64,000 nucleotides of DNA from an uncultured Bacteroidales bacterium (GTDB taxonomy: Bacteria > Bacteroidota > Bacteroidia > Bacteroidales > FEN-979), in NCBI GenBank assembly GCA_903926565.1, contig CAIYJU010000191.1:1-64000 (forward strand). Reading direction: 5' to 3'. The position numbers and the translations under genes were made by a program. The notes below the pieces were generated by a model. It had not been told where the DNA came from. It was given only the letters and a program-made list of their open reading frames with translations, and made no database searches. This document shows positions 8,353 to 14,766 of this stretch, piece by piece (positions within the stretch are counted from its first letter, which is position 1; the number at the start of each line of letters is the position of its first letter).

Positions 8353-8976
8353 ATGATCGATTTAAGAACCTACATTTTCCTGGATTCACTGCAATTACAG
8401 ATGGCCTCTTATCTCTCAACAGTTTCAAGAGGATACCTTCCTGTGGCAGGGCAGGCGTGCTGTATCATAGAAATAGCGCCCGGAATTGAAATCAATACCC
8501 TCACCGACATCGCCCTGAAGGCGACCCGTGTAACACCGGGCATGCAGATCGTCGAAAGGGCTTATGGCATGCTGGAAGTCCATTCCGACAGCCAGGGCGA
8601 AACCAGGATGGCAGGCGAAGCGGTGTTGAAAGCCATTGACAAAATTGAATTTGACAGGATAAAACCTCGAATCCTGACAAGTCAGCTGATAAAAAATGTG
8701 GAAGATCACCATGCCCAGCTCATCAACCGGACAAGGATGGGGATGATGCTGCTGAGAGGCGACACGTTGTTTGTCCTCGAAGTTGAGCCCGCCGGATATG
8801 CCTATTATGCCGCCAATGAAGCTGAAAAAGCAGCCCATATCAACATCATCGACGTGATGGGATTTGGCAAGTTCGGCAGGGTCTATATCGGCGGTGAAGA
8901 AGCAGAAGTACTTGAATGTAAAACAATTGTAGAACAACGCCTGGCCGAAATATCCGGCAGGGAAGATTACAAATAA
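8353..8976 (+). CDS. BMC-T shell protein, CcmP/CsoS1D-like (tandem BMC domain)
   Basis: 207 aa. Two BMC domains in one chain: residues about 1-100 (YIFLDSLQLQMASYLSTVSRGYLPV...IEIAPGIEINTLTDIALKATRVTPGMQIVERAYGMLEVHSD) and about 105-205 (ILTSQLIKNVEDHHAQLINRTRMGMML...VEPAGYAYYAANEAEKA). The opening segment resembles CcmP/CsoS1D, the double-layered trimers whose large pore is gated. Family knowledge suggests a gated conduit for bulky metabolites or cofactors across the shell. First gene of a tight ten-gene operon; 34 bases separate it from the BMC-H gene. Class is firm by the two-domain length and motifs; the exact subtype comes from remembered family sequences. Confidence 0.88.
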   Translation: MIDLRTYIFLDSLQLQMASYLSTVSRGYLPVAGQACCIIEIAPGIEINTLTDIALKATRVTPGMQIVERAYGMLEVHSDSQGETRMAGEAVLKAIDKIEFDRIKPRILTSQLIKNVEDHHAQLINRTRMGMMLLRGDTLFVLEVEPAGYAYYAANEAEKAAHINIIDVMGFGKFGRVYIGGEEAEVLECKTIVEQRLAEISGREDYK

Positions 8977-9010
8977 AACATAAACCACTAATCAAATAGG
9001 AGAAATAATC

Positions 9011-9313
9011 ATGAATGATCAAACTTCAGAAGCATTGGGAATGATAGAAACCAGGGGCTTTTCCGCCATGGTGGAGGCATCGGATGCAATGGTAAAAGCA
9101 GCCAAAGTAGAATTGGTCGGTTACGAAAAGATCGGTGGCGGCTATGTCACTGCAATTGTCCGCGGTGATGTTGCCTCTGTCAGAGCTGCAGTGGATGCCG
9201 GTGTTCAGGCTGCCCAGAAAGTTGGGGAACTTGTTTCATCCCACGTCATCCCAAGACCTCACCAGAATGTCGACAGCGCTTTACCTTTGGGCAGAGGCAC
9301 CACGAAAAAATAA
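9011..9313 (+). CDS. BMC-H hexameric shell protein
   Basis: 100 aa, a single BMC domain (pfam00936). Residues 8-90 follow the canonical pattern: [29 protein letters not shown], the pore loop K40-IGGG-Y45, then [19 protein letters not shown] and the closing SSHVIPRPH. It forms the hexameric facet tiles; the Gly-rich pore loop suggests a small-metabolite pore. A clear RBS (AGGAGAAA) precedes the ATG. It is the only BMC-H in the operon, so facets would be built from this protein plus the two BMC-T proteins. The C-terminal tail ([11 protein letters not shown]) is short and basic. Confidence 0.96.
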
Positions 9314-9351
9314 AATTCTTCCAATCGTAAATCCTCCAATCGCAAAACGGT

Positions 9352-9648
9352 ATGGTTCTGGCAAGAGTAGTGGGAACAGTCGTTTCCAGTCATAAGTCAC
9401 AGAAAATAGAAGGGATAAAATTCCTCCTTCTCGATAAAATCGACCCTGTGAGCATGAAAGGCAAAGGTGACTTTGTCGTTTCCATGGACAGTGTGGGTGC
9501 GGGACCGGGAGACATCGTATTCTATGTATCCGGCAGCAGTGCCAGGAATACCGATGTGACCGAAGGAAAGCCTTCTGATTCTGCCGTCATTGCCATTGTG
9601 GATCACATTGAAAAGGATGGCGCGTTTACGTATCAGAAAAACAGGTAA
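9352..9648 (+). CDS. BMC-P pentameric vertex protein 1 (EutN/CcmL family)
   Basis: 98 aa, pfam03319. Hallmarks: MVLARVVGTVVSSHKSQKIEG at the N-terminus, LLLDKIDP, the loop SVGAGPGDIVFYVSGSSARN, and the C-terminal SAVIAIVDHIE. Such proteins form pentamers that cap the vertices of the icosahedral shell. It lies 38 bases after the BMC-H gene and 7 bases before a second BMC-P gene. Four BMC-P paralogues exist in the operon; this one keeps the fullest Gly-rich loop. Confidence 0.95.
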   Translation: MVLARVVGTVVSSHKSQKIEGIKFLLLDKIDPVSMKGKGDFVVSMDSVGAGPGDIVFYVSGSSARNTDVTEGKPSDSAVIAIVDHIEKDGAFTYQKNR

Positions 9649-9655
9649 TTGACCC

Positions 9656-9943
9656 ATGATCCTAGCCAAAGTAGTCGGAACCGTTGTTTGCAGTTCAAGA
9701 AATGACAGCATGAACGGAGCCCGATATCTCCTGGTTGAGAAGTCAAATCAGCATGGTGAAAGAAAAGGAGACTACCTTGTTGCACTCGATGTTCTAGGTG
9801 CAGGTCATGATGAACTGGTGATGGTCACGGAAGGCAGCCCTTCCAGGGAAACACCGCTTACGACCAACAAGCCAGTTGATGCACTGATCGTGGGGATTGT
9901 CGACAAGATAGATGAAAATGAGCAGGTAACGTACATGAAATAA
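9656..9943 (+). CDS. BMC-P pentameric vertex protein 2 (EutN/CcmL family)
   Basis: 95 aa. MILAKVVGTVVCSSRNDSMNG, YLLVEKSNQHG, the loop VLGAGHDELVMVTEGSPSRE and VDALIVGIVDKID match the EutN/CcmL fold. The loop reads GAGHDE in place of the usual GAGPGD, so the pentamer surface or interface may differ from copy 1. Directly follows copy 1 (7-base gap) and precedes the PduT-like trimer gene. Role: vertex cap of the shell. Confidence 0.94.
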   Translation: MILAKVVGTVVCSSRNDSMNGARYLLVEKSNQHGERKGDYLVALDVLGAGHDELVMVTEGSPSRETPLTTNKPVDALIVGIVDKIDENEQVTYMK

Positions 9944-9962
9944 TGAGGGATCGGCGGAATTG

Positions 9963-10520
9963 ATGGTTTTGGGGGTATTGGAGTATAGCAGCATTGCTAT
10001 CGGGATCAAGGCACTGGATGAAATGGTAAAGATTGCTCCGGTCAGAATCATTGAAGCCAGGACGCTTTGCCCCGGCAAATACCTGATCGTCTTCAGCGGG
10101 GATGTTGCATCTGTGGAATACTCGTTTAATAAAGGTTTCGAAATCGGTAAAAATTTCATCATCGACAGTCTGTTTCTTCCCATGGCCCATCCTGATCTTG
10201 TTCCTGCCATCGGAAACATTGTTGCCTGTGATCACTGGAATGCCATCGGAATCATTGAAACATTATCCGTGGTCTCCAGCATTGAAGCCGCTGACCTTGC
10301 AGCTAAAGAGAGCAACATTAAACTAATAGAAATCAGGCTGGCCATCGGTTTTGGCGGCAAATCCTATGTGAAAATGCTCGGGACACTCGATGCCATGGAA
10401 GCAGCACTGGAAGCCGGCACAGCCAAAGCCCGGGAGAAAAATCTGCTTTGCATGTCAACACTGATCCCGCAGCCACACCCTGAAATTAAACCATATTTCC
10501 TTCAGCAGGAGAGCAAGTAA
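9963..10520 (+). CDS. BMC-T trimer shell protein, PduT-like, with predicted Fe-S pore cysteine
   Basis: 185 aa from the ATG at 9963 (a TTG lies one codon upstream). Two tandem BMC domains: residues about 2-90 and 95-182 (NAIGIIETLSVVSSIEAADLAAKESN...FGGKSYVKMLGTLDAMEAAL...TLIPQPHPE). The first pore loop reads TLCPGKYL with C36, the counterpart of Cys38 of PduT (ICPGK), where three subunits ligate a [4Fe-4S] cluster at the trimer pore. It may therefore carry electrons across the shell or hold a cluster. The stop codon is directly followed by the ATG of the aldehyde dehydrogenase gene. Family is firm; cluster binding is inference. Confidence 0.9.
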   Translation: MVLGVLEYSSIAIGIKALDEMVKIAPVRIIEARTLCPGKYLIVFSGDVASVEYSFNKGFEIGKNFIIDSLFLPMAHPDLVPAIGNIVACDHWNAIGIIETLSVVSSIEAADLAAKESNIKLIEIRLAIGFGGKSYVKMLGTLDAMEAALEAGTAKAREKNLLCMSTLIPQPHPEIKPYFLQQESK

Positions 10521-11939
10521 ATGGATAATCTTGAAAAAAACATACGCCAGCTGGTGCAGGATGTCATCCAGGACATGAACATCTTTCCGCAAAAAACGGC
10601 GGCTTCTTCAAAAAATGCAGGGGTGTTTTCTAACATCAATGAGGCGATTTCAGCAGCAGGACTGGCGTTCAGGGAGTTCAACAAATTAACACTGGAAACC
10701 CGTAAAAATATCATCACGAACATCCGGAAAACCGCGCTTGCCAACAACGAAACCATCTCCCGGATGGCCCATGAAGAGACCGGCCTCGGGCGATGGGAAG
10801 ACAAGATCATCAAAAACAGCCTGGGAATTCATAAAACACCCGGAGTCGAAGATATTGTGTCAGAATCGTATTCGGATGATGACGGATTAACTCTTGTAGA
10901 ACGTGCGCCCTATGGCGTAATCGGTTCCATCACGCCAAGTACAAATCCGACGGTGACCATCATCAGCAACAGCATTGGCATGATCGCTGCCGGCAATTCG
11001 GTGGTGTTTAATCCGCATCCGTCCGCAAAGAAGGTTTCGGCATGGCTTATTACGCTTCTTAATCAAGCAATCATGGAAGCTGGCGGACCGGCAAATTTGC
11101 TTACCTGTATCGATGAACCAACCATTGATTCTGCAAAAAGCCTGATGTCACACCCGGATATTACCATCCTGGTTGTTACAGGAGGCCCTGCCGTGGTGCG
11201 TGTTGCGATGAACAGCGGGAAAAAGGTCATCGCCGCAGGCCCGGGAAATCCTCCCTGTGTGGTGGATGAAACCGCCGACCTGGCCAAAGCCGGCCGGGAT
11301 ATTGTCAATGGTGCCGGTTTCGATAACAATGTCATCTGCATTTGCGAAAAAGAGATCATCGTTGTTGAATCGGTCGCCGACAGGCTAAAAGCAGAGCTGG
11401 TAAAAAACGGGGCATTCGAGCTAAATCCTGAACAAATTAAAAAAATCACGGAACTGGTTATCGCTGATCCGGGTGGCCCGGGAAAAGAAGGTGCTGCCGA
11501 GAAAAAGTATATCGGAAAGAATGCGGATGCCATTGCCAGGGAAATCGGGCTAACCGTCCCGCCATCAACAAGGCTCCTGCTCTGTGAAGTAGGAAGGGAA
11601 CATCCGCTGGTATGGACAGAACAGCTGATGCCGGTCATGCCCATGGTGAGGGTCAAAGATGTAGATGCCGCCATCGACCTGGCTGTTGAATGTGAGCATG
11701 GGTTCCGGCACACCGCCATCATGCACTCCCTCAACATTGCCAAGCTCAGTAAAATGGCCAAAGCGATGAACTGCTCGATCTTTATCAAAAATGGCCCCAG
11801 CTATGCAGGTTTGGGTCATGGCGGTGCAGGGTTTGCATCGTTCACCATTGCAAGCCCAACCGGAGAAGGCGTAACAAGGGCAAGGACTTTCACCCGGGAA
11901 CGCAGGTGCACCCTGGTTGACTATTTCAGGATTATTTGA
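10521..11939 (+). CDS. CoA-acylating aldehyde dehydrogenase of the microcompartment (PduP/EutE family)
   Basis: 472 aa. Oxidises an aldehyde (probably acetaldehyde) with NAD+ and CoA to acyl-CoA. Catalytic C273 lies in FDNNVICICEKE, matching the FDNNLPCIAEK block of EutE/PduP. Other family blocks: ERAPYGVIGSITPSTNPT (about 128-145), AAGNSVVFNPHPSAKKVS, VVTGGPAVVRVAM and AGPGNPPCVVDETADL. Residues 1-20 form an amphipathic helix (MDNLEKNIRQLVQDVIQDM) separated from the catalytic core by a Ser/Ala linker, typical of an encapsulation peptide. It follows the PduT-like gene with no gap. This is the signature enzyme of an aldehyde-type metabolosome. Confidence 0.94.
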   Translation: MDNLEKNIRQLVQDVIQDMNIFPQKTAASSKNAGVFSNINEAISAAGLAFREFNKLTLETRKNIITNIRKTALANNETISRMAHEETGLGRWEDKIIKNSLGIHKTPGVEDIVSESYSDDDGLTLVERAPYGVIGSITPSTNPTVTIISNSIGMIAAGNSVVFNPHPSAKKVSAWLITLLNQAIMEAGGPANLLTCIDEPTIDSAKSLMSHPDITILVVTGGPAVVRVAMNSGKKVIAAGPGNPPCVVDETADLAKAGRDIVNGAGFDNNVICICEKEIIVVESVADRLKAELVKNGAFELNPEQIKKITELVIADPGGPGKEGAAEKKYIGKNADAIAREIGLTVPPSTRLLLCEVGREHPLVWTEQLMPVMPMVRVKDVDAAIDLAVECEHGFRHTAIMHSLNIAKLSKMAKAMNCSIFIKNGPSYAGLGHGGAGFASFTIASPTGEGVTRARTFTRERRCTLVDYFRII

Positions 11940-11997
11940 TTGCGAAAACGAACCGCTGAAAGCAAAAATGACCTGGTAAAAAACGAACCACCCCCGT

Positions 11998-12022
11998 CCC
12001 CTTCTCCTTCAGGGAGAAGGGG
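11998..12022. repeat. GC-rich palindromic repeat inside the BMC operon
   Basis: CCCCTTCTCC (11998-12007) and GGAGAAGGGG (12013-12022) flank a 5-base loop. It lies in the only long gap (120 bases) of an otherwise tight operon, between the dehydrogenase stop and the third BMC-P start. A similar element is at 28331-28381. It can fold in the mRNA and could tune expression of the distal genes. Confidence 0.65.
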
Positions 12023-12059
12023 TGCAGGGGATGAGGTTAATCAAAAAGAAACGATTGCT

Positions 12060-12335
12060 ATGAAACTTGGAAGAGTCACCGGCAGAGTTGTAAGTTCAAA
12101 GAAAGTCTTCGAGTTTGAAGGCATCAAACTGATGCTTGTGCAACCTGTTGATGAGCATCTCGTCGCGTATGGCGAACCGCTCGTTGCTTTCGATACAATT
12201 CAGTCGGGCATCGGCGAACTGATTTATTACGAAACAAGCAAAGAAGCCGGAAGGGTTCTTGAAACGCTGATGAATCCCTGTGATGCGGCAATCGTGGGAA
12301 TTGTGGACAACATTCATCTGGAGGACAAAAAATGA
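12060..12335 (+). CDS. BMC-P pentameric vertex protein 3 (EutN/CcmL family)
   Basis: 91 aa from the ATG at 12060. I chose this start because the frame upstream of it reads through a palindromic repeat and encodes low-complexity sequence, while MKLGRVTGRVVSSKKVFEFEG is the standard N-terminus. It has LMLVQPVDE, the loop TIQSGIGELIYYETSKEAGR and CDAAIVGIVDNIH. The loop keeps only SGIGE of the usual GAGPGD. Its stop overlaps the start of the fourth BMC-P gene (ATGA), so the two are translationally coupled and may form a functional pair. Confidence 0.93.
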   Translation: MKLGRVTGRVVSSKKVFEFEGIKLMLVQPVDEHLVAYGEPLVAFDTIQSGIGELIYYETSKEAGRVLETLMNPCDAAIVGIVDNIHLEDKK

Positions 12336-12613
12336 TACTGGCGAAGGTTACCGGGAATGTGGTCTCTACCATAAAAGCAATCGGGTATGAATCCAGGAAG
12401 ATTTTGGTTGTGCAACCCGTAAGACCCGACGGGAAAGCCATCGGCAAGTCCTTTCTTGCTGTTGATACCATGCAGGCAGGCCCCGGAGATACCGTGCTGA
12501 TCATGGAAGAAGGCGGTTCGGCACGTTTAATACTTGGTGAACCGGATACATTTACTGTGAAGGCAGTGGTTGCAGGAATTGTGGATAAAATCCAATATGA
12601 TTCCAAGGTCTGA
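12332..12613 (+). CDS. BMC-P pentameric vertex protein 4 (EutN/CcmL family)
   Basis: 93 aa. MILAKVTGNVVSTIKAIGYES, ILVVQPVRPDGK, the loop TMQAGPGDTVLIMEEGGSAR and VKAVVAGIVDKIQ match EutN/CcmL closely, with the canonical AGPGD loop intact. Coupled to copy 3 by a 4-base overlap and followed by the rpiB-like gene after 33 bases. It would cap shell vertices, either alone or as an alternative to the other three pentamers. Confidence 0.94.
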   Translation: MILAKVTGNVVSTIKAIGYESRKILVVQPVRPDGKAIGKSFLAVDTMQAGPGDTVLIMEEGGSARLILGEPDTFTVKAVVAGIVDKIQYDSKV

Positions 12614-12646
12614 AATATTTTGAAAAGAATAGAGAAATACAGGCGC

Positions 12647-13102
12647 ATGATTAAAAAAGTAGCCATCGGTGCTGATCACGGATCATATCTTGCAAAGGAG
12701 ATGCTGATCAGGTATCTCGAAAGTGCCGGGTATAAGATGGTCGATGTTGGCACCAATAATAGTACGGATAAAGTAGATTATCCTGATTTCGCACATGCTG
12801 TAGCGCAGAAAGTGGTGAGCGGGGATTGTGAGCGAGGCATAATGCTGGATGGTGCCGGGATCGGCTCTTCCATGGTGTGTAACAAGGTTCATGGCATCAG
12901 GGCAGCCTTATGCTGGAGCACGGCAACGATTGTCAACAGCCGTGAACATAACAATGCGAATGTACTTACCATGGGCACTGCCCAGCATCCGAAGGAAGAG
13001 CTGTGTGCAATGGCGAAATTGTGGCTTGAAACAAAATTTGAAGGCGGAAGGCACTGGCCGAGGATTAATAAAATGATGTCAATAGAAAGGGAAGGGAAAT
13101 AA
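12647..13102 (+). CDS. RpiB/LacAB-family sugar-phosphate isomerase of the BMC locus, Cys-to-Asp at the catalytic position
   Basis: 151 aa from the ATG at 12647 (a TTG 27 bases upstream is less likely). MIKKVAIGADHGSYLAKE, VDVGTNNSTDKVDYPDFAHAVA, NKVHGIRAALC, SREHNNANVLTMG and FEGGRHWPRI match the RpiB fold end to end. E. coli RpiB uses Cys66 in ICGTGVGIS as proton-transfer base; here the aligned block is LDGAGIGSS, with D68 in that place and no Glu at the position used by the mycobacterial type. The reaction would be aldose/ketose phosphate isomerisation (ribose-5-phosphate/ribulose-5-phosphate or another pentose phosphate). It has no obvious encapsulation peptide. One base separates it from the aldolase gene. 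Confidence 0.88.
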   Translation: MIKKVAIGADHGSYLAKEMLIRYLESAGYKMVDVGTNNSTDKVDYPDFAHAVAQKVVSGDCERGIMLDGAGIGSSMVCNKVHGIRAALCWSTATIVNSREHNNANVLTMGTAQHPKEELCAMAKLWLETKFEGGRHWPRINKMMSIEREGK

Positions 13103-13103
13103 C

Positions 13104-13901
13104 ATGGATCAAAATGAATTGATAGACAAAATCACGAAAGAGGTCATGCAGCGGCTGAACCAGGAGATCGCGACCCGCAGCAATAAAACCGGGGACCCTG
13201 TTACCAGGTCCTCTCCTGCTCCGCGGATATCAGCTGCAGAACTTGCCGGATACATCGATCATACCCTGCTAAAACCGGAAGCAGTGGTTTCCCAGTTTGA
13301 ACAGCTGTGCAACGAAGCGGTGAAATACAAGTTCATGTCGGTTTGTGTGAACTCATCATGGATCCCCTTTGTGGCTAAGAAACTCCGCGGAACGAGTGTT
13401 AAAATCTGTTCCGTCATCGGGTTTCCCCTCGGCGAGATGGATACGCGCAGCAAAGCCTTCGAAGCACGCAATGCTGTTGCCAATGGTGCAACAGAACTTG
13501 ACATGGTGATCAATGTAGGCGCCCTGAAATCAGGCAATCTGAAACTGGTTGAGGAGGATATCCGGGCCATCAAAAGAGCCTGCAGGAGCACTACCATTTT
13601 AAAAGTGATCCTGGAAACAGGACTGTTAACCGATGAAGAAAAAATCATCGCCTGTGAAATATCCAAAAAAGCAGGAGCTGATTTTGTGAAGACCAGCACA
13701 GGATTCTCAGGCACGGGTGCAACCATCCACGATGTCGCCCTGATGCGCAGGATTGTCGGCCCGGCCATGGGTGTCAAGGCCAGTGGCGGTATCCGGAATT
13801 TCGACCAGGCTGTTGCCCTGATCAACGCGGGAGCAAACCGCCTGGGCTGCGGCGCCAGTGTGGATGTCGTTACCGGAGCAGAATCAAAAGGGAATTACTA
13901 A
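13104..13901 (+). CDS. deoC: DeoC-family deoxyribose-phosphate aldolase with N-terminal encapsulation-type extension
   Basis: 265 aa. Class I aldolase that cleaves 2-deoxyribose-5-phosphate to acetaldehyde and glyceraldehyde-3-phosphate. Schiff-base lysine K196 (FVKTSTGF), the second active-site lysine K225 (VKASGGI) and proton-relay D133 (ELDMVINVG) are all present. Further blocks: YIDHTLLKPEA and ICSVIGFPLGEM. Residues 1-45 are extra compared with the E. coli enzyme: an amphipathic helix (MDQNELIDKITKEVMQRLNQE) and a polar linker, very like the N-terminus of the dehydrogenase in the same operon, so luminal targeting is likely. It would supply the aldehyde for that dehydrogenase. Last gene of the BMC operon. 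Confidence 0.93.
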   Translation: MDQNELIDKITKEVMQRLNQEIATRSNKTGDPVTRSSPAPRISAAELAGYIDHTLLKPEAVVSQFEQLCNEAVKYKFMSVCVNSSWIPFVAKKLRGTSVKICSVIGFPLGEMDTRSKAFEARNAVANGATELDMVINVGALKSGNLKLVEEDIRAIKRACRSTTILKVILETGLLTDEEKIIACEISKKAGADFVKTSTGFSGTGATIHDVALMRRIVGPAMGVKASGGIRNFDQAVALINAGANRLGCGASVDVVTGAESKGNY

Positions 13902-14136: not shown

Positions 14137-14766
14137 ATGAAGAAGAATCCGACTCAAGACATCACCACCGAACAGTTAATCCTGGCAACCGCTGAGAAGT
14201 TATTCCTGGAAAAAGGTTATTCATTAACATCAACCACCGAAATTGCAAAGATCGCCGGCTGCAACCAGGCACTGGTTCACTACTATTTCCGGACGAAAGA
14301 CCGGCTGTTTGATGCTGTATTCAAAAAACACTCCACAATCTTTATCTCTTCCCTTCTTCAAAGAATGGAAGATCATCTTTCTTTTGAAGAAAAAGTGCGG
14401 AAAAAAGTTGAGATACACTTTGATGTCATGATGGAAAACCCCGGACTGCCTTTTCTTTTTTTCAATGAAATAAACACCAACCCCGGCCGGCTCAATCAAC
14501 TTAAAGTACAAATTGGAAATTCCGAAAATTCATTTATATCACAGATTGAAAGTGAATTAAGCCTCGAAATAGAAAAGGGCGCCATCCGCCCCATGACCGC
14601 AACCGGACTTTTGCTCACGATCCTCTCCATGAATTTGGGATTGTTTATCGCCGGCCCTTTCCTGAAGACAATAACAACCATGCAGGATTCTGAATACCAA
14701 AACCTCATGGATCATCGGAAACGGGAAAACACAACGGTGATATTAAAAAGCCTTCGGCCCGAATAA
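14137..14766 (+). CDS. TetR/AcrR-family transcriptional regulator
   Basis: 209 aa. Residues about 10-58 form the TetR helix-turn-helix (ILATAEKLFLEKGYSLTSTTEIAKIAGCNQALVHYYFRTKDRLFDAVF); the rest is an all-helical ligand and dimerisation domain of unassigned ligand. A palindrome directly upstream and a second copy of its core directly downstream suggest autoregulation, and possibly control of the next gene. It is the nearest regulator to the BMC operon, but that operon's promoter region shows no clear copy of the motif, so a direct link is unproven. Confidence 0.93.
   Translation: MKKNPTQDITTEQLILATAEKLFLEKGYSLTSTTEIAKIAGCNQALVHYYFRTKDRLFDAVFKKHSTIFISSLLQRMEDHLSFEEKVRKKVEIHFDVMMENPGLPFLFFNEINTNPGRLNQLKVQIGNSENSFISQIESELSLEIEKGAIRPMTATGLLLTILSMNLGLFIAGPFLKTITTMQDSEYQNLMDHRKRENTTVILKSLRPE

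Follow-up and report, generated by a model that had tools for sequence, protein, structure and literature searches.

The RpiB-like enzyme encoded in a microcompartment (BMC) locus of the window, the whole 64,000-nucleotide stretch of an uncultured Bacteroidales genome analysed here, carries an aspartate at the position of the catalytic cysteine of RpiB. It belongs to a single RpiB clade with a D68/S74 signature (hereafter the Asp type), and the link of this clade to BMC-bearing genomes is well supported. As read from the sequences, the change exceeds the one residue named in the initial annotation, with positions 70, 74 and 97 also different. The Asp-type active site is a new variant within an enzyme family and a kind of locus, called SPU, that are already known; no mention of an aspartate at the catalytic-Cys position of RpiB was found in the titles and opening abstract lines of the open-access papers listed. 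An enzyme annotated as an ordinary sugar-phosphate isomerase is a member of a widespread Asp-for-Cys branch. Since the catalytic residue is replaced in every SPU copy read, along with linked active-site changes, its assignment as ribose-5-phosphate (R5P) isomerase may be wrong.

The gene lies in a run (8353-13901) encoding a tandem BMC protein, a BMC-H, two BMC-P, a BMC-T, an aldehyde dehydrogenase, two further BMC-P, the RpiB and DeoC:

8353..8976, + strand, CcmP-like tandem BMC shell protein (NF053796 281.8 bits, below the cut-off of 340; PF00936 19.5, below the cut-off of 24.5)
9011..9313, + strand, BMC-H shell protein (PF00936 112.7 bits)
9352..9648, + strand, BMC-P shell protein 1 (PF03319 80.6 bits)
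9656..9943, + strand, BMC-P shell protein 2 (PF03319 91.8 bits)
9960..10520, + strand, BMC-T shell protein with two BMC domains (PF00936, two stretches)
10521..11939, + strand, aldehyde dehydrogenase (NF011927 683.9 bits, cut-off 403), which we take to be of the EutE-like kind
12057..12335, + strand, BMC-P shell protein 3 (PF03319 81.0 bits)
12332..12613, + strand, BMC-P shell protein 4 (PF03319 78.7 bits)
12647..13102, + strand, Asp-type RpiB of 151 aa, presumed microcompartment cargo (PF02502 165.8 bits; D68 aligned to the catalytic Cys; model pLDDT 96)
12848..12850, + strand, codon GAT of Asp68, read in the frame of 12647-13102
13104..13901, + strand, DeoC deoxyribose-phosphate aldolase (TIGR00126 286 bits, cut-off 117.3, match from residue 46)

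This is the gene content named SPU (sugar phosphate utilising) by Axen 2014 and Sutter 2021. SPU loci are defined by a PF01791 aldolase and a PF02502 protein together with shell genes (PMC8217296), and both occur with BMC shell genes in the window, along with the aldehyde dehydrogenase (NF011927, 683.9 bits); the phosphotransacylase PduL is missing from some SPU loci (PMC4207490). The SPU RpiB-like protein of these two studies stands in the same kind of locus with DeoC and aldehyde dehydrogenase; it is called an R5P isomerase in the available text of PMC4207490 and PMC8217296, where the altered active site goes unmentioned. A TetR-like regulator gene 3' of DeoC (14137-14766; NCBIfam matches below cut-off) may control the locus. 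The DeoC of the window has an N-terminal extension of about 45 aa ahead of the aldolase domain, which looks similar to an encapsulation peptide.

The translation of 12647-13102 (151 aa) includes GIMLDGAGIGSSMVCNK, NSREHNNANV and FEGGRHWPR. ATG 12647 matches, by eye, the M of KYRRMI in same-genus copies, and an alternative longer frame starts with TTG at 12620. The protein is a member of the RpiB/LacAB family (Pfam PF02502, 165.8 bits against a cut-off of 24.7; NCBIfam NF004051, 165.1 bits against 135). It scored below the cut-off of the RpiB equivalog TIGR01120 (131.7 against 138.65) and far below those of the LacA/LacB models (69-95 bits, cut-offs 164-325), and the match to the D-erythrulose-4-phosphate isomerase (DerI) model NF051858 was weak and far below cut-off.

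In HMMER alignments, D68 fell on the Cys of the motif ICGTGVGIS of E. coli RpiB (1nn4) and on that of ICGTG in C. thermocellum RpiB (3he8), which bears out the replacement of the catalytic Cys reported in the initial annotation. Among 22 sequences of solved RpiB-like structures, position 68 was read by alignment in six (3he8, 3ph3, 6fxs, 6fxl, 1nn4 and 6fxw), all of them with Cys. Cys-type enzymes have Cys as the proton-transfer base and Ser or Thr two residues past it, where the window RpiB has D68 and A70; the ring-opening His, the Asn and the phosphate-binding Arg and His are kept (H101, N102, R135, H136, R139). Compared with the E. coli and C. thermocellum enzymes, the fold and the phosphate and ring-opening residues are shared, and the differences are Asp for Cys, Ala70 for Ser/Thr, Ser74 and Asn97. 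The initial annotation was also correct in that the mycobacterial Glu is absent and the rest of the fold conserved. Ser74 occupies the position of Glu75, the Glu of the mycobacterial-type motif GGSGNGE. The predicted model (mean pLDDT 96), in which D68 ends strand 63-68, superposed on 148 residues of 3he8 at 0.9 A (Z 27.4, 42% identity). M. tuberculosis RpiB (Glu75 type) resembles the window enzyme in having a carboxylate instead of Cys as presumed base, but differs in that the carboxylate of the window RpiB stands at the Cys position, with Ser74 at the Glu75 position and Ala70 for Ser. The galactose-6-phosphate isomerase LacA/LacB has the family, the fold and the ring-opening His in common with the window RpiB, but LacB keeps Cys65 and Thr67 (PMC3755991), and the LacA and LacB models score far below cut-off. 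RpiBs with the mycobacterial-like GGSGNGE motif, with Glu where the window enzyme has S74, were seen in L025 (genome G164) and L266 (G498, also the genome of the Bacteroidetes record L148).

An alignment of 269 RpiB-domain rows, with one row removed for gaps and identical rows merged, gave 214 distinct domains, comprising 134 Asp types, 78 Cys types and two of the mycobacterial Glu75 type. Ser74 was found in 134/134 Asp types and 0/78 Cys types. Because S74 is common to all 134 distinct Asp-type domains, Asp68 is more than a chance replacement. Position 70 was Ser (56), Thr (21) or Asn (1) in Cys types, so Ser/Thr in 77/78, while in Asp types it was non-hydroxyl in 110/134 (Ala 96, Val 11, Ile 2, Leu 1) and kept as Thr (23) or Ser (1) in 24. 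Position 97, which corresponds to the LacA pocket residue Met92 when counted from the ring-opening His (PMC3755991), was Asn (102) or Ser (32) in all Asp types and in none of the Cys types (Leu 49, Gln 15, Met 6, Arg 5, and Ile, Val and Phe once each). At position 112, Arg accounted for 70 of the 78 Cys types, and Asp types displayed Gly (46), Arg (35), Lys (29), Pro (10), Ala (9) and others (5). By alignment, this position presumably corresponds to Arg113, a phosphate contact of other RpiBs. Ten positions (D10, H11, D68, S74, R99, H101, N102, R135, H136 and R139) were invariant in 134/134 Asp types. In a tree of 95 rows (the window RpiB, a random 54 Asp and 38 Cys types, and both Glu types) built with columns 68, 70 and 74 omitted, the Asp type formed one side of a branch with SH-aLRT 96, from few columns and in a tree with 42 weak forks.

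The Asp type was found across many phyla and often near shell genes and DeoC. A one-genome-per-species contig scan was made with an alignment of 15 Asp types, over two conserved peptides that exclude position 68. Among the best 80 of at least 556 relative-encoding stretches, a set biased to the query, 79 had Asp and one Cys. These 80 came from Bacteroidota, Spirochaetes, Atribacteria, Chloroflexi, Acidobacteria, Planctomycetota, Gemmatimonadota, Eisenbacteria, Calditrichota, KSB1, Ignavibacteria and others. The 79 Asp-type loci from these best 80 had a shell gene in 58 and DeoC within 1 kb in 67; in 81 Cys-type loci, many of them short, a shell gene was seen in none and DeoC in three. RpiB and DeoC were fused in four Asp-type loci (L127, L137, L150 and L159).

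A less query-biased survey started from BMC-P genes in the class of Levilinea, where 31 of 80 genomes had them. The sample, covering part of the BMC-P sites, comprised 40 regions from 28 genomes; G525 was omitted, and G486 and G493 had already been read, as L124 and L139, both with Asp. RpiB was encoded in 18 of the 40 regions, from 18 different genomes, and had Asp in 18/18; the other 22 regions held shell genes without RpiB, two of them with DeoC.

In 62 genomes, no shell gene had been observed around the Asp-type gene; whole-genome search found BMC-P genes in 62/62 and deoC in 62/62. The views near the gene covered mostly 4-10 kb per side in 51 loci and about 1.5-2 kb in seven, and position 68 was read in these 58; the other four of the 62 genomes are G116, G074, G345 and G353. 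Some of these genomes may carry shell genes fairly near, as in G493, where they lie about 29 kb off on the same contig. Genomes of the L152 type (G152, G011, G337 and G001), also of the Asp type, were outside this search. A stand-alone cytosolic Asp-type RpiB, considered for loci such as L105, L116, L144, L146 and L162-L201, was dropped given the BMC-P and deoC genes in all 62 genomes.

As a comparison, 80 same-phylum genomes were searched, 15 of them without a query match and 65 with a single match in a frame shorter than 190 aa (position 68 mostly unread). BMC-P genes were present in two of the 80, G066 (three) and G132 (one); this comparison is confounded by family, as many Asp-type genomes come from few families. 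Two of 14 named control genomes also had BMC-P genes. Both G066 and G132 belong to the 15 without an RpiB match, so BMC-P genes also occur without an Asp-type RpiB. The initial annotation had proposed that the change is specific to BMC-linked members, and of this the link itself stands, given the 18/18 Asp types in the shell-first sample, the 0/81 Cys-type loci, many short, with a shell gene, and the 62/62 genomes. Even in genomes where the RpiB gene was distant from shell genes, the D68/S74 signature indicated the presence of BMC genes, and it can flag microcompartment parts that locus-based surveys could miss. In G124 (L165) of family f18, distances of more than 100 kb separate the genes for the Asp-type RpiB, DeoC and BMC-P on a single contig; SPU parts are dispersed in other genomes of this family too, where locus-based surveys could miss the system.

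Cells with an Asp type usually have another R5P isomerase. Two sets of 47 genomes (43 read at position 68) and 50 genomes (all read), which may overlap, made up 97 genomes. RpiA was found in 47 of the 97, and a second RpiB-family match in 37 of the 50 without RpiA, so that 84/97 had one or the other besides the Asp type (residue 68 read in 93). The second copies read in 27 of these 37 RpiA-less genomes were of the Cys type in 26 and of the mycobacterial Glu type in one. The remaining 13 genomes (G082, G062, G047, G361, G310, G459, G467, G469, G474, G476, G481, G496 and G499) had neither match; with a relative's RpiA as query, G047 gave an RpiA fragment at the end of a contig, and the other twelve gave no match. 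Same-genus genomes of G082, G062 and G361 carry RpiA, and the other nine may be incomplete assemblies or true Asp-type-only cases. Neither RpiA nor another RpiB was found in the window's own genome (93.84% complete). Of 18 other genomes of its genus, seven encode an Asp type, always together with a Cys copy, so an assembly gap probably accounts for the lack of a Cys copy in the window genome. The usual presence of another isomerase is compatible both with R5P isomerisation inside the compartment and with a different function for the Asp type. The retention of another Rpi was not taken as proof that the Asp type cannot isomerise R5P, because an enzyme confined to the compartment would be of no use to the cytosol.

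In RpiB, the Cys takes the C2 proton and the Thr/Ser two residues on shuttles a proton between O1 and O2 (PMC4783025, PMC3755991). Ring opening is the task of His99, His102 or His96 in the RpiB/LacAB family (PMC4783025, PMC3755991). In LacAB, H96 opens the ring, T67A causes an approximately 20-fold loss, and Cys65 of LacB is 3.3 A away from the O1 atom of the sugar ligand (PMC3755991). The initial annotation had raised a changed substrate or reaction, and this part of its proposal is possible and the reading we favour: positions 70, 74 and 97 are altered, and the parts acting on C2 and O2 appear to be replaced. The ring-opening and most phosphate-binding parts are kept, and deoxyribose-5-phosphate (dR5P), the presumed substrate, is without O2. 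This pattern suggests a ring-opening enzyme for DeoC, as a sugar without O2 would not undergo aldose-ketose isomerisation at C2, which favours the ring-opening half-reaction. We give a probability of roughly 0.35 to the reading that the Asp type mainly opens the dR5P ring, the first half of the RpiB reaction, for DeoC. Its most specific form, a dR5P openase and non-isomerase that arose from RpiB when an O1 base took the place of the C2 base and that is in physical association with DeoC, is slightly less likely.

Under the ring-opening reading, the Asp type would be an active enzyme and microcompartment cargo, located beside, and sometimes fused to, DeoC, and would bind a pentose 5-phosphate as RpiB does. 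His101 would still protonate the ring oxygen, and Asp68, at the place of LacB Cys65 (3.3 A from O1), would accept the proton of the anomeric hydroxyl. The opened dR5P would then be supplied to DeoC as a reactive aldehyde. A precedent for this role is YhcH, an anomerase that feeds open sugar to the Schiff-base aldolase NanA (PMC8141875); YhcH is a Zn protein of the DUF386 family (PMC8141875), so the likeness is in role alone. dR5P is 99.8% furanose, but phosphorylated furanoses open fast without help, R5P reportedly at 40-100 per s, and dR5P opening was not expected by the authors to limit DERA (PMC5975929); in a microcompartment, where enzymes are concentrated, it could still become limiting. 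Three further points also count against ring opening: Thr/Ser is kept at position 70 in 24/134 Asp types, so that the O1/O2 shuttle is not lost throughout the clade; Asp could just as well act as an isomerase base; and Arg112 is kept in just 35/134, so that the ligand could differ. Should the openase form hold, the pathway now assigned to one of the commonest microcompartment types would have to be rewritten.

About equally likely is an R5P/ribulose-5-phosphate isomerase with a carboxylate base, working in the microcompartment, in which Asp68 would take the role of Cys66 (E. coli) or Glu75 (M. tuberculosis), and a Ser74 relay would replace Ser/Thr70. A Glu base is accepted for mycobacterial RpiB (PMC4783025, PMC3755991), the other active-site residues are kept, and R5P isomerase is the name used in the SPU papers (PMC8217296, PMC4207490). 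Against this, we see no clear metabolic purpose that isomerising R5P would have in a locus with DeoC and an acylating aldehyde dehydrogenase, and the 84/97 genomes with RpiA or a second RpiB match weigh weakly in the same direction, as sequestration alone could explain them.

An isomerase acting on some other 2-hydroxy aldose or ketose phosphate, entering or leaving the SPU pathway, appears unlikely. The family has other substrates (LacAB), the DerI model NF051858 gave its weak match, and pocket positions 70, 74, 97 and 112 are altered, but the LacA, LacB and DerI models scored far below their cut-offs. In addition, the commonest neighbour families of the 79 Asp-type loci included no sugar kinase or mutase among their identified members, most small clusters lacking identification.

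The initial annotation's alternative of a dead enzyme, here an inactive RpiB retained for a structural or targeting role, did not hold up well and is very unlikely. Loss of the catalytic Cys does inactivate trypanosomatid enzymes (C69S LdRpiB, C69A TcRpiB; PMC4783025), but the phosphate-binding and ring-opening residues are among the ten active-site positions invariant in all 134 sequences, and an invariant Asp and Ser gained together are unlike random losses. Still less probable is a TIM-like role, although TIM also employs a carboxylate. DeoC yields glyceraldehyde-3-phosphate (PMC8217296), but six of the 79 Asp-type loci also encode a TIM-family protein (one member Pfam-confirmed), and the phosphate site of the family seems suited to a sugar of greater length. 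Sequencing error or misassembly, for which the incompleteness of the window assembly (93.84% complete) might speak, was refuted by the same Asp in seven same-genus genomes and in 79/80 loci elsewhere (best 80 of at least 556).

Additional modules were observed in other Asp-type loci. Ahead of the RpiB domain, many Asp types (e.g., L124:9722-10441 and L015:1288-1947) have about 65-75 additional residues with the motif LITE..V......G......iiTP.A, an N-terminal extension that the window RpiB lacks; the pattern matched 71/186 Asp-type frames. We take this extension to resemble the N-termini of EutQ and EutT; Pfam on the L124 RpiB matched the RpiB domain alone and nothing in the extension. A small separate gene in 12/79 loci (e.g., L152:16092-16493) appeared by eye to be the same module alone, the L152 gene giving no Pfam match and none better than E 0.87 in a PDB search. 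The DeoC proteins of L095, L124 and L139 have a cysteine-rich stretch ahead of the DeoC domain, missing in the window DeoC. A conserved Chloroflexi neighbour considered as PduL was a signal peptidase by Pfam. A protein of the actin/FtsA-like ATPase kind was encoded in 12/79 loci (e.g., L114:4738-5622; weak Pfam matches, one member), and a phosphoribosyltransferase-like gene in five acidobacterial loci (L105, L118, L121, L123 and L141; Pfam for L105) fits nucleoside metabolism.
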